Made by a program: the position numbers and the translations under genes
DNA from: Nocardioides sp. 503
GTDB lineage: Bacteria > Actinomycetota > Actinomycetes > Propionibacteriales > Nocardioidaceae
Assembly: GCF_004522095.1 (NCBI RefSeq)
Contig: NZ_SPUI01000001.1
Location: forward strand, 1-64,000
Length of the DNA: 64,000 bases
Reading direction: 5' to 3'
The notes under the pieces: generated by a model
Databases searched by the model: none
What the model saw: the letters and a program-made list of their open reading frames with translations, nothing else
Told to the model about the DNA's origin: nothing
Part shown: positions 25,956 through 59,370 of the stretch, in pieces
Layout of the letters: each line of letters begins with the position of its first letter
Position numbering within the stretch: position 1 is the stretch's first letter

Positions 25956-26048
25956 GGTGGTTGAGGAAGGCGCGCAGCGCTTGTCTCGAAACCCCTGTCC
26001 TGGGGGTCGTGGTTTCGAGATGGTCGCTGCGCGACCTCCTCAACCACC
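25956..26048. repeat. palindromic REP-like intergenic element (two inverted halves)
   Basis: Left half 25959-25993 starts GGTTGAGG and ends CTCGAAACC. Right half 26011-26045 starts GGTTTCGAG and ends CTCAACC. They are inverted copies of each other flanking a 17-nt spacer, and each half has its own inner stem (CGCGCAGCG-type). The same motif recurs at 27.4, 50.7, 50.8, 50.9 and 57.6 kb. Between the E2 gene and paaK it may also act as a terminator. Confidence 0.75.
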
Positions 26049-27388: not shown

Positions 27389-27421
27389 GGTTTCGAGACA
27401 GGACTTCGTCCTTCCTCAACC
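27389..27421. repeat. single half of the REP-like element
   Basis: It starts GGTTTCGAGACA and ends CTCAACC, with inner stem AGGAC-TTC-GTCCT. It lies between the convergent paaK and EthD-protein genes; the stop codon of the EthD gene (27416-27418) is within it. It may act as a bidirectional terminator. Confidence 0.6.
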
Positions 27422-50606: not shown

Positions 50607-51038
50607 GCCGCCACTTTCTCACGTGTCCGTGGTCGAGCAGCGAGGAGCGCCAGCGACGAGCGTCCGTCGAGACCCGGTGAGTCGAGGCAGGCGTTCGGGT
50701 GCGGGGGTTTCGAGACGGTTGCTGCGCAACCTCCTCAACCCACGAGGCCGACCCCGGTGGTTGAGGTGCGAGCGCAGCGAGCCTCGAAACCACGTGTCGG
50801 TGGTCGAGCAGCGAGGAGCGCCAGCGACGAGCGTCCGTCGAGACTCGGTGAGTCGAGGCAGGCGCTCGGGTCGCTGCGGTTTCGAGACGGTTGCTGCGCA
50901 ACCTCCTCAACCCACGACGCCGACGCCACCCCAGGGCCGAAAGTAAAATCGGAGAAAGAAGCCACTAACCCTCCACACCCTGTGGATAACCGGCCTTTCC
51001 GGCCTACCACTGTCGGTGGTCGCTGCTTGAGTAGACCC
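50607..51038. repeat. 432-nt non-coding region with tandem REP-like repeats
   Basis: Two direct copies of about 125 nt (50621-50745 and 50792-50917) are about 95% identical. Each contains the GTGGTCGAGCAGCGAGGAGC motif and a GGTTTCGAG...CTCAACC half element (50706-50740, 50878-50912). Between the copies is an inverted half, GGTTGAGG...CGAAACC (50759-50791). From about 50940 the sequence becomes A-rich (AGTAAAATCGGAGAAAGAAG) and probably holds the promoter of the HNH gene. No coding potential is evident; long frames here are repeats read through. Confidence 0.75.
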
Positions 51039-56084: not shown

Positions 56085-57548
56085 TCAGATCTCCGTCTCG
56101 GAGCGGTCGCCCGCCCAGGTCGTGTGGAAGGTGCCTTGCTTGTCGGTGCGCTGGTAGGTGTGGGCGCCGAAGTTGTCGCGCAGCGCCTGGATCAGGGACG
56201 CGGGCAGCCGCTCGCGGCGCAGGCCGTCGAAGTAGGCCAGCGACGACGCGAACGCCGGGGTGGGGACCCCGCCGCGGGCCGCGACCGCGACGACCTCGCG
56301 CCAGGCGTCGACGCCGTCCTTGACGGCCTCGGCGAAGTAGGGAGTCGTGAGCAGGGTCGTCAGGTCCGGCTCGTCGGCGTAGGCCTCCTTGATCCGGTCG
56401 AGGAACTGCGCGCGGATGATGCAGCCGCCGCGCCAGATCGTCGCCGTCTGCCCGAGGTCGACGTCCCAGCCGTGCTCCTCGGCGCCGGCCGCGATCTGGT
56501 CGAAGCCCTGGGCGTAGGCGACGACCTTGGAGGCGTAGAGCGCGGCGCGGACCTGGTCGACGAAGGTGTCGCGGTCGACGTCGACGCGCTCGTCCTCCGG
56601 CGAGGTGGAGAACACCTTGCGGGCGGCCTCGCGCTGGGCGGTGTGTCCCGACAGGCTGCGCGCGAACGTCGCCTCGGCGATGCCCGTGATGGGCACGCCC
56701 AGGTCGAGCGCGCTCTGCACGGTCCAGCGGCCGGTGCCCTTCTGCTCCGCGGCGTCGCGCACCACGTCGACGAACGGCGACCCGGTCGCGGCGTCCACGT
56801 GGCGCAGCACGTCGGCGGTCATCTCGATCAGGAAGGACTCGAGGTCGCCGTGGTTCCAGTCCTCGAAGACGTCGGCGATCTCGGCCGGCTCGAGCCCGGC
56901 GACGCTGCGCAGCAGGTCGTAGGACTCCGCGATCAGCTGCATGTCGGCGTACTCGATGCCGTTGTGGACCATCTTGACGAAGTGGCCGGCGGCGTCGGGT
57001 CCCACGTGGGCGCAGCACGGCGTGCCGTCGACCTGTGCGGCGATCTTCTCCATGATCGGCCCCAGCACGTCGTAGGCGTGGTCGGAGCCGCCGACCATGA
57101 TCGAGGGGCCCTCGAGGGCACCCACCTCGCCGCCGGAGACGCCCATGCCGACGAAGTGCAGGCCGTGCTCCTCCAGCGCCTGCTGGCGGCGCAGCGTGTC
57201 GGTGAAGTGGGCGTTGCCGGCGTCGACGACGATGTCGCCCTCGTCGAGCAGCGGCACCAGCTCGTCGATGACCGCGTCGGTCGGCTCGCCCGCCTTCACC
57301 ATGATGATGACCGCGCGCGGCTGCTGGATCGCGGCCACGAAGTCCTCGAGCGACTCGGCGCCGACGAAGGCGCCACCGCTCTCGAGCGGCTCGTCGCCGA
57401 ACTCCTCGAGCAGCGAGGTTGTGCGGGCGTAGGTCCGGTTGTGCACCGCGATCGTGTGGCCGTGGCGGGCGATGTTGCGGGCCAGGTTGCGCCCCATCAC
57501 CGCCAGTCCGGTCAGCCCGATGGAGGCGGTGGGATCAGTGGTCGGCAT
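56085..57548 (-). CDS. gnd: 6-phosphogluconate dehydrogenase, decarboxylating (NADP-dependent)
   Basis: A 487-residue enzyme of the pentose phosphate pathway forming ribulose 5-phosphate, CO2 and NADPH. NADP motif GLTGLAVMGRNLARNIARHG with HNRT; substrate residues in GMGVSGGEVGALEGPSIMVG, catalytic Lys and Asn in GHFVKMVHNGIEYADMQLIA, GQKGTGRWTVQSALDLGVPI (written with AEQKGTG here), and TIWRGGCIIRAQFLDRIKEA. Length matches the long (dimeric) type. ATG 57548 starts the operon with the aldo/keto reductase. The gap upstream contains repeats. Confidence 0.96.
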   Translation of the reverse strand: MPTTDPTASIGLTGLAVMGRNLARNIARHGHTIAVHNRTYARTTSLLEEFGDEPLESGGAFVGAESLEDFVAAIQQPRAVIIMVKAGEPTDAVIDELVPLLDEGDIVVDAGNAHFTDTLRRQQALEEHGLHFVGMGVSGGEVGALEGPSIMVGGSDHAYDVLGPIMEKIAAQVDGTPCCAHVGPDAAGHFVKMVHNGIEYADMQLIAESYDLLRSVAGLEPAEIADVFEDWNHGDLESFLIEMTADVLRHVDAATGSPFVDVVRDAAEQKGTGRWTVQSALDLGVPITGIAEATFARSLSGHTAQREAARKVFSTSPEDERVDVDRDTFVDQVRAALYASKVVAYAQGFDQIAAGAEEHGWDVDLGQTATIWRGGCIIRAQFLDRIKEAYADEPDLTTLLTTPYFAEAVKDGVDAWREVVAVAARGGVPTPAFASSLAYFDGLRRERLPASLIQALRDNFGAHTYQRTDKQGTFHTTWAGDRSETEI

Positions 57549-57614
57549 GACTTGATGTAACCGCCGCGGGCGGTCCTGTGTTCCCCGCGGGCCGGTGTTT
57601 CCACATCACCGACT

Positions 57615-57669
57615 GGGTTTCGGCGCGCCGTCGCGACCCCGTTCCTCGGTCGCGACGCTTGCTCAACCT
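57615..57669. repeat. diverged REP-like element with hairpin
   Basis: It starts GGGTTTCG and ends GCTCAACCTC, like the elements at 26, 27.4 and 50.7 kb, but has a different inner stem: GTCGCGACC (57630-57638) pairs with GGTCGCGAC (57648-57656). It lies between gnd and alkB, which diverge in transcription from nothing here: both run on the minus strand. Confidence 0.5.
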
Positions 57670-57710
57670 CTTCTAGTGTCGCGGCTTCGCAAGCTCAGCC
57701 GCGCTAGAAG
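57670..57710 (-). terminator. hairpin overlapping the stop codon of the AlkB-like gene
   Basis: CTTCTAG (57670-57676) plus CGCGGCT (57680-57686) pair with AGCCGCG (57697-57703) plus CTAGAAG (57704-57710). The stop codon of the AlkB-like gene (57704-57706) is in the stem. It is a likely terminator of that gene. Confidence 0.55.
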
Positions 57711-58318
57711 ACATTGAGAGGCCGGAACTGCACCGACATCCGCGGGCCGGCGTGGGCCACCTTGGGGACGGCGTGCTCCCAGGTGCGCTGGCAGCTGCCG
57801 CCCATGACCAGCAGGTCGCCGTGGCCCATCTCGATCGCGATCGACTCACCGCCGCCGCGCGGGCGCAGGTGGAGCTTGCGGGGGTCGCCGACGGAGACGA
57901 TGGCCACCATCGTGTCCTGCTTGCTGCCGCGCCCGATCGTGTCGCCGTGCCACGCGACGCTGTCGCGCCCGTCGCGGTAGTAGCAGCAGCCGGCCGTGCG
58001 GAACGGCTCGCCGAGCTCGGGCAGGTAGTGCTCGCTCAGCGCGTCGCGGGCCTCCTCCAGCACGGGATGGGGGAGCTGCTCGCCGATCATGTAGGTGTAG
58101 ACGAGCCGCGGCACGTCGACGACGCGGTCGTACATCTGGCGGCGCTCGGCACGCCACGGCACGGCGTCGACCATCGTGGTGAAGATGTCGTCGGCCTCGG
58201 GCACCCAGGAGCGGAGCAGGTCCACCCAGGCGCCCTGACCGAGGGTGCGTCGCTCGATCCCGTCGAAGGACCGGAGCCCGTGCGGCGGCGCCGCGAAGAG
58301 CGAGGTCTGGAAGTCCAT
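57704..58318 (-). CDS. AlkB-like Fe(II)/2-oxoglutarate-dependent dioxygenase
   Basis: A 204-residue dioxygenase of the AlkB-like family that repairs alkylated nucleobases by oxidative demethylation. The iron ligands are His and Asp in VAWHGDTIGRGSK and a distal His in WEHAVPKVAHAGP; the 2-oxoglutarate-binding Arg is in RMSVQFRPLNVF. FRTAGCCYYRDGRDS and HLRPRGGGESIAIEMGHGDL fit. The ATG at 58318 is 6 nt after a -10 box (TATCCT), giving a leaderless mRNA. A perfect SOS box lies just upstream, so expression should rise on DNA damage. The gene ends within a hairpin. Confidence 0.92.
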   Translation of the reverse strand: MDFQTSLFAAPPHGLRSFDGIERRTLGQGAWVDLLRSWVPEADDIFTTMVDAVPWRAERRQMYDRVVDVPRLVYTYMIGEQLPHPVLEEARDALSEHYLPELGEPFRTAGCCYYRDGRDSVAWHGDTIGRGSKQDTMVAIVSVGDPRKLHLRPRGGGESIAIEMGHGDLLVMGGSCQRTWEHAVPKVAHAGPRMSVQFRPLNVF

Positions 58319-58324
58319 GACCCC

Positions 58325-58355
58325 AGGATACGCGATCGTTCGAACACGCGTTCGA
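58325..58355 (-). promoter_or_regulatory. SOS (LexA) box and promoter of the AlkB-like gene
   Basis: TCGAACACGCGTTCGA (58340-58355) is an exact match to the actinobacterial LexA site TCGAAC-N4-GTTCGA. -10 TATCCT occupies 58330-58325 on the minus strand; the ATG at 58318 follows 6 nt later. A repressor on this site would cover the -35 region. Confidence 0.85.
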
Positions 58356-58388
58356 TCTCGCGCCGTGTCTTCTTCGCCCGGCCGCGGG

Positions 58389-58559
58389 TCAGGACAGCGT
58401 GCGCACCAGCTGGTCCACGGTGTCGTCGGCCAGGCGGTCCACGGGGCGCCGGATGAACAGCGGGACGACCGGGTCGCCCAGGCGGCCGAAGTCGAAGCCG
58501 GCCCGGGAGCGGATCGCGGTGCCCGCACCGTCGGGGGAGAACGTCAAGGTGTCGGCATT
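58389..58559 (-). pseudogene. C-terminal remnant of an SRPBCC-type protein
   Basis: The frame encodes about 55 residues, ADTLTFSPDGAGTAIRSRAG with FDFGRLGDPVVPLFIRRPVD and RLADDTVDQLVRTLS, resembling the C-terminal strand and helix of SRPBCC (polyketide cyclase) proteins. No N-terminal part is present; the frame runs into the start of the ABC gene. It looks like a truncated gene. The right boundary is approximate. Confidence 0.45.
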
Positions 58560-58599
58560 CCCGGTGGCGGGGGGTTGCGCGGCACGAGAGGCTAGCCCC

Positions 58600-59370
58600 A
58601 TGACCGACGCCCCGCTCGCCGACACAGGCGTCACCCGCACGCCTGCCGCCCGCGTCCAGCACCTCACGAAGACCTACGGCGAGGGGCTCGCGCTGGTCCG
58701 GGCGCTGGACGACGTGACCCTGGACATCCTGTCGGGGGAGTTCACCGCGGTCATGGGCCCCAGCGGCTCGGGCAAGTCGACGCTCATGCACCTGTGCGCC
58801 GCGCTCGACACCGCCACCAGCGGCACCGTCGTGATCGGCGACCGCAGCCTGGAGCACCTCTCCGACAAGGAGCTCACCCGCCTGCGGCGCGACGAGATCG
58901 GCTTCGTCTTCCAGTCCTTCAACCTGGTGCCGACGCTGACGGCCAAGGAGAACATCCTGCTGCCGATGTCGATCGCCGGCCGCAAGCCCGACCCGGCCTG
59001 GTACGACGAGGTCATCGCCACCGTCGGCCTCGCCGACCGGCTGGGCCACAAGCCCAACGAGCTCTCCGGCGGGCAGCAGCAGCGCGTCGCCGTGGCCCGT
59101 GCGCTGGTCAGCCGCCCGCGCATCGTGTTCGCCGACGAGCCCACCGGCAACCTCGACTCCAAGTCCGGGGCCGAGGTGCTCGAGCTGCTGCGCAGCAGCG
59201 CCGCCGACCACGGCCAGACCGTCGTGATGGTCACCCACGACCCGGTGGCGGCCGCCTACACCGACCGGGTCGTCTTCCTGGCCGACGGCCGGGTCGTCGA
59301 CGAGCTGCGCCACCCCGACCGCGACCGGGTGCTCGAGATCATGGCTCGCATGGCCGATCCGGAGGTCTGA
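58600..59370 (+). CDS. ABC transporter ATP-binding protein (MacB/LolD type)
   Basis: A 256-residue ATPase of the exporter family that works with FtsX-like permeases. Walker A MGPSGSGKSTLMHLCAALDT, Q-loop FVFQSFNLVPTLTAKENILL, signature LSGGQQQRVAVARALVSRPR, Walker B IVFADEPTGNLDSKSGAE, H-loop VMVTHDPVAAAYTDRVVFL. Such pairs extrude lipoproteins, peptides or drugs, or act in cell-envelope mechanotransmission. The permease gene starts 5 nt after the stop. Substrate unknown. Confidence 0.93.
   Translation: MTDAPLADTGVTRTPAARVQHLTKTYGEGLALVRALDDVTLDILSGEFTAVMGPSGSGKSTLMHLCAALDTATSGTVVIGDRSLEHLSDKELTRLRRDEIGFVFQSFNLVPTLTAKENILLPMSIAGRKPDPAWYDEVIATVGLADRLGHKPNELSGGQQQRVAVARALVSRPRIVFADEPTGNLDSKSGAEVLELLRSSAADHGQTVVMVTHDPVAAAYTDRVVFLADGRVVDELRHPDRDRVLEIMARMADPEV

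Follow-up and report, generated by a model that had tools for sequence, protein, structure and literature searches.

A perfect LexA-type box at the predicted leaderless promoter of an alkB-like gene in Nocardioides sp. 503, and its placement in related actinobacteria

In E. coli, alkB is reported to be under the control of Ada (PMC1839093), in contrast to the LexA control that we predict for the alkB-like gene described here. LexA-controlled alkB genes are already known in the same phylum. The alkB gene of Streptomyces venezuelae (vnz_32390) is reported as an AlkB-type member of the LexA regulon that is a LexA ChIP target and is induced 11-fold by mitomycin C (PMC9380542). In Mycobacterium tuberculosis, alkB is described among the genes whose induction by mitomycin C depends on RecA, and Rv1000c, a putative AlkB, is listed among the genes with putative SOS boxes (PMC8151990); moxifloxacin is reported to induce Rv1000c approximately 8-fold (PMC7911356). 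An SOS box and induction by DNA damage are also what we predict for the gene studied here. Because this wiring has already been reported in Streptomyces and the tubercle bacillus, the present case is real but mostly ordinary.

The gene lies in the first 64,000 nt of contig NZ_SPUI01000001.1 of Nocardioides sp. 503, and we refer to that whole stretch of analysed DNA as the window. We propose, with a probability of roughly 0.93, that this alkB-like gene belongs to the SOS regulon, that it is controlled by a predicted LexA operator, and that DNA damage induces a leaderless mRNA encoding a repair dioxygenase. The sequence basis for this proposal is the box, the -10 and their spacing (Table 1), the conservation of this arrangement, the genome's own LexA and RecA genes with their 1-mismatch boxes, and the catalytic residues and predicted fold of the protein. 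From these features we infer LexA binding, damage induction, the leaderless start and the substrate at this locus. In undamaged cells, a LexA dimer would occupy the box, over the place of the -35, and bar RNA polymerase from the promoter. DNA damage would lead to RecA filaments and self-cleavage of LexA, and the promoter would open. The leaderless mRNA, starting at the ATG, would then be translated into an AlkB-type dioxygenase whose most likely role is repair, by oxidative removal of methyl groups from bases such as 1-methyladenine and 3-methylcytosine.

Table 1. Features of the alkB-like locus (window coordinates).
Feature	Coordinates	Strand	Description
alkB-like gene	57704..58318	-	204 aa, AlkB-family 2OG-Fe(II) oxygenase; PF13532 (E = 1e-14), alignment, structure model
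SOS box, predicted LexA operator TCGAAC-ACGC-GTTCGA	58340..58355		both 6-bp arms perfect; kept before orthologues
-10 hexamer TATCCT	58325..58330	-	orthologues have TANNNT at preferred distances from both box and start
ATG start codon	58316..58318	-	separated from the -10 by 6 nt; its A is the predicted transcription start

The first-pass annotation had described a perfect actinobacterial LexA consensus box lying directly upstream of the -10 of a leaderless promoter. The box indeed has no mismatch to the consensus; its 16 bp are exactly TCGAACACGCGTTCGA, which reads TCGAACGCGTGTTCGA on the minus strand (58355-58340). Its placement is also as described, with a gap of 9 nt: read 5' to 3' on the minus strand, the order is box, 9 nt, -10, 6 nt and ATG. 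The operator overlaps the core promoter and occupies the place where a -35 would be, a layout that relatives share. Scanning 57500-58700 for generic sigma-70 promoters gave no promoter-like site and no TTGACA-like -35, and we therefore rejected the idea of such a -35 hidden in the region.

The promoter is probably leaderless, to judge from the conserved spacing between the -10 and the start. When the distance was left unlimited, the first in-frame start after the -10 lay at a distance of 6 nt in 67 of 105 family loci and of 7 nt in 30 (97/105 together). The remaining eight have starts 0, 1, 1, 1, 8, 11, 14 and 73 nt after the -10, and at least some of these outlying spacings are mis-assigned -10s or starts. 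In the 238 loci that pass a composite criterion, which itself permitted 5-8 nt between the -10 and the start, the distance is 6, 7 and 8 nt in 157, 78 and 3 loci, respectively. A spacing of 6-7 nt leaves no room for a ribosome-binding site.

A chance match was rejected on the basis of a reversed-pattern control in the genome, permuted hexamers and conservation before orthologues. TCGAAC-N4-GTTCGA without mismatch occurs in the window only at this locus. At two or fewer mismatches there are nine window sites, compared with 2.54 expected in shuffles, and the other eight all have two mismatches. The 4.79-Mb genome contains eight perfect boxes versus none for the reversed control pattern, and 31 boxes with no more than one mismatch versus 7 for the control.

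Looking for the box before orthologues had been suggested with the first-pass annotation, and the box is found there in the family and the class alike. The protein has a match in 129 of 149 family genomes (its own genome included). We examined 105 family orthologue loci; 24 matching genomes lie outside that set, two of them added later. All 105 loci carry the box, which is perfect in 50, has one mismatch in 53 and has two mismatches in 2. A paralogue with 35-38% identity has it in none of the five loci fetched. At the level of the class, 174 of 296 genomes match the protein profile. The 163 class loci that we collected consist of the best 80 named among the matches listed (including Nocardioides, Streptomyces, Amycolatopsis, Nocardia, Actinomadura, Nonomuraea and others), plus 23 and then 60 further loci, and the best site has 0, 1, 2, 3, 4 and 5 mismatches in 36, 71, 41, 7, 5 and 3 of them.

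A composite of box, TANNNT and start spacing is similarly conserved. It is present at two or fewer mismatches in 225 of 243 class-level orthologues, defined as rows at least 55% identical to the window protein, and in a mean of 0.2 (maximum 6) for 60 permuted hexamers. TCGAAC ranks first among all 4096 palindromic hexamers before these 243 orthologues, with 192 at one mismatch or fewer; the median hexamer scores 0 and the 99th percentile 4. Allowing three mismatches and gaps of 0-11 nt between box and -10, 259 non-redundant loci (three Streptomyces loci having been added) divide into 204 with a gap of 7-10 nt, 34 with a gap of 0-2 nt and 21 that fail.

Eight of the 243 orthologues fail the 3-mismatch composite test. 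Three of these are Amycolatopsis loci in which, as a scan over a wider range showed, a perfect box lies 19 nt from the -10. In two f34 genomes (L264 and L288) the box seems, by eye, to lie over the start codon, and in L110 a box is visible and the start was missed by the scoring script. The last two, L187 (Streptomyces) and L191 (Desertihabitans), are without a good site. Among the rows less than 55% identical to the window protein, 3 of 16 carry the box (L230, L248 and L252) and 13 do not. In a sample of the phylum, 46 of 246 genomes match the protein, 28 of them outside the class. Of the 20 loci fetched from these 28, six pass the composite test, compared with a mean of 0.017 and a maximum of 1 in the controls, and 11 have a site with two or fewer mismatches in the 100 nt that precede the aligned start. 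This distribution suggests that SOS control of alkB is conserved widely and is more than a Streptomyces or mycobacterial quirk.

The palindrome might instead be a chance match, or might belong to another regulator or a neighbouring gene. A gene fragment on the same strand (58389-58667) does end about 33 nt from the box, and the opposite strand carries an ABC-transporter gene that starts at 58600. However, conservation of the box is tied to alkB and its -10, which makes a box serving a neighbour unlikely; in the one relative whose neighbours we compared, by eye (L017), the ORFs upstream of alkB differ from those in the window. The same motif also precedes lexA and recA. Taken together, we consider a chance or borrowed palindrome hardly credible, and we continue to read the box as the LexA operator of the alkB-like gene.

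The distance between operator and -10 falls into separate classes. We rescanned the 243 loci for gaps of -4 to 44 nt at two or fewer mismatches, and 228 pass (permuted controls: mean 0.55, maximum 9). The preferred gap is 0, 1 or 2 nt in 25, 5 and 1 loci (31 in total; the near register) and 7, 8, 9 or 10 nt in 54, 67, 62 and 11 loci (194 in total; the far register, to which the window locus belongs). A gap of 19 nt, with a perfect box, is preferred in three loci that form one close Amycolatopsis group (L186, L190 and L201). No passing locus has its preferred site at any other gap in the scanned range. Outside the class, five of the six loci that pass the composite test (among L310-L329) are of the near register. 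The sixth, L315, has a gap of 4 nt for a weak box with two mismatches, and a better match, with one mismatch, lies closer to the start; its sequence makes this locus a possible intermediate between registers.

A quick gene tree was built from 171 of the 259 rows; 66 of its 168 inner branches are open, and the long branches L230, L260 and L261 are unsure. On this tree the near and far registers require 11 changes, and well-supported branches force at least four of them for the near label. Among the 204 far loci, the distal arm reads TAGAAC in 59 and TGGAAC in 13, and 159 have GTTCGA as the proximal arm; among the 34 near loci, 31 have TCGAAC as the distal arm, and the arm abutting the -10 varies, a contrast that is confounded by phylogeny. 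We considered that the distal arm TCGAAC could double as a -35, and the frequent TAGAAC variant neither proves nor excludes such a role. A TTG is found approximately 17 nt before the -10 in a few loci with a gap of 0 (e.g., L027, L048 and L082). Since most gap-0 loci are without it, we claim no general -35 rule.

We give an even chance to the broader idea that SOS control of this ALKBH2/3-like alkB is ancient in the phylum Actinomycetota, with an operator confined to discrete registers: a gap of 0-2 nt, a gap of 7-10 nt over the -35, and a gap of 19 nt, about a helical turn further, in one Amycolatopsis clade. The first two would have switched several times without a stable intermediate. If this is true, the promoter is a natural test of which repressor positions are allowed at a -35-poor actinobacterial promoter. 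Discrete operator registers also offer comparative data on where operators are placed at leaderless promoters. Among the papers listed by our literature search, mostly of open-access work, we saw none on operator registers or on family-wide conservation at alkB.

Most of the Streptomyces orthologues examined share the arrangement of box, -10 and leaderless start. Their boxes are more degenerate, often with two or three mismatches, whereas the box here is perfect. For S. venezuelae alkB, Table 1 of the published study gives the SOS box as the 14-mer GGTTACGCTGGATC, located at -20 and marked as validated (PMC9380542). A search of 295 Streptomyces genomes found this 14-mer in five. In three of the five (L290, L292 and L293) its start lies 15 nt upstream of the alkB ATG and it includes a -10-like TACGCT, and two of these three have a LexA-like box, with two or three mismatches, 8-9 nt upstream of it. 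Judged from these other Streptomyces genomes, the published S. venezuelae alkB box may be the -10 region.

The mycobacterial operator appears to be arranged differently. The published Rv1000c qPCR primer sites fit the orthologue at L240, one of the f5/g31 loci, with 3 and 1 mismatches, so Rv1000c is probably the same gene and the f5/g31 loci are probably from mycobacteria. All 11 f5/g31 loci fetched are of the near register and have a TCGAAC-N4-GTGCGA box. In these loci the box abuts the -10 (gap 0) and one arm is GTGCGA, whereas Nocardioides sp. 503 has two perfect arms and a gap of 9 nt.

LexA might not be the sole input at the alkB-like promoter. M. tuberculosis alkB is reported to remain inducible by mitomycin C with recA deleted and pafBC silenced (PMC8151990), and a further input is therefore possible in that organism. 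If PafBC or another damage regulator also acted in Nocardioides, the gene would be only partly an SOS gene. However, a profile of 203 far-register loci reveals no second conserved element in the 14 positions immediately 5' of the box, where the commonest base at any position reaches 44% at most. We consider an additional regulator unlikely here and favor LexA as the controlling input.

The protein is AlkB-type, as had been called from the sequence, but it is not a close counterpart of E. coli AlkB and is nearer to ALKBH3 and ALKBH2. Besides the PF13532 match, residues H124, D126, H182, R193 and R199 are unchanged in all 19 rows of an alignment of diverse orthologues and line up with ALKBH3 positions. 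An HxD...H metal triad and an R-x5-R 2OG site are both present, and we take the five residues to have these metal and 2OG roles. The 25 best PDB matches of the AlphaFold model (pLDDT 87.5) are all ALKBH3 or ALKBH2 chains, in keeping with an AlkB fold. The top match is ALKBH3 (TM 0.76, 28% identity), followed by ALKBH2; ALKBH3 structures as a group give TM 0.70-0.76 at 28-30% identity, and E. coli AlkB structures rank lower (TM 0.57-0.60, 14-17% identity). By sequence, too, the closest solved structures are human ALKBH3 and ALKBH2, although these are eukaryotic and without SOS control. With E. coli AlkB, the protein has the superfamily fold and the catalytic residues in common. Because the NCBIfam scan gave no match at E 0.001, and because identity to the E. 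coli AlkB structures is this low, we present demethylase activity as a prediction.

A genuine operator could also control an enzyme that acts on RNA, or on some other substrate, in the damage response. RNA-active members exist among AlkB relatives, ALKBH3 included, and NCBIfam makes no alkB call for the 204-aa protein. The best matches are, however, the DNA repair enzymes ALKBH3 and ALKBH2, and the metal and 2OG residues are invariant among the 19 rows. We regard a role other than DNA repair as improbable, and a DNA repair demethylase as the better reading of the gene.

The proposal that alkB is wired to the SOS response and not to Ada fits the rest of the genome, although, as noted above, it is not new in the phylum. 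The genome has one Ada-type gene, encoding a 508-aa fusion of Ada_Zn, HTH and AlkA, followed by a gene for an Ogt-type methyltransferase. This locus is on contig C6 and has no alkB beside it; alkB is on C5, unlinked to ada. We also considered SOS control of the Ada-AlkA locus, but the only box-like site near it has two mismatches (L307:2082-2097). An Ada domain is present in 37 of 39 genomes searched, this one included. Ada, AlkA and Ogt sit apart from alkB in this genome, unlike in E. coli, and the case as a whole suggests that the AlkB branch of alkylation repair in actinobacteria answers to general DNA damage through the SOS response.

Several other genes of this genome carry the box. Four 1-mismatch boxes and one 2-mismatch box lie directly upstream of lexA (C8:562112-562774; TIGR00498, 231 bits), the start of recA lies 165 nt downstream of a 1-mismatch box, and a UvrA frame begins at another. 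Downstream of perfect boxes are genes for a DnaE-type polymerase, a DUF222 protein (L002), a DUF6504 protein and a C5-cytosine methylase; an ORF at L006 looks nearly identical to the DUF222 protein. The ORFs beside the boxes at L005, L013 and L303 have no Pfam match. At all three, TANNNT follows 1 nt after the box and the start 12-13 nt after the box, so both registers seem to be present in one genome. This gene set, from a subset of the 31 sites, resembles the known actinobacterial SOS sets. The perfect box of the C5-cytosine DNA methylase is at the start of its frame (L007, G000:C7:1214961), and GC3 of that frame is lower than in most other box-side ORFs. From its sequence, this is possibly an SOS-linked mobile or restriction locus.

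Two further observations concern the surroundings of alkB. The gene fragment just upstream (58389-58667, minus strand) is a 92-aa ORF that looks like a decayed SRPBCC gene. Its match to PF10604 is confined to the 56 C-terminal positions and falls short of the gathering score, and the ORF overlaps the start of the ABC-transporter gene on the opposite strand. A short, intergenic-looking repeat, GTTTCG...CTCAAC, occurs at 25960-26044, 27390-27420, 50707-50911 and 57617-57667, the last of these just downstream of alkB. The pattern has seven matches in the window, compared with a mean of 0.12 in mononucleotide shuffles.
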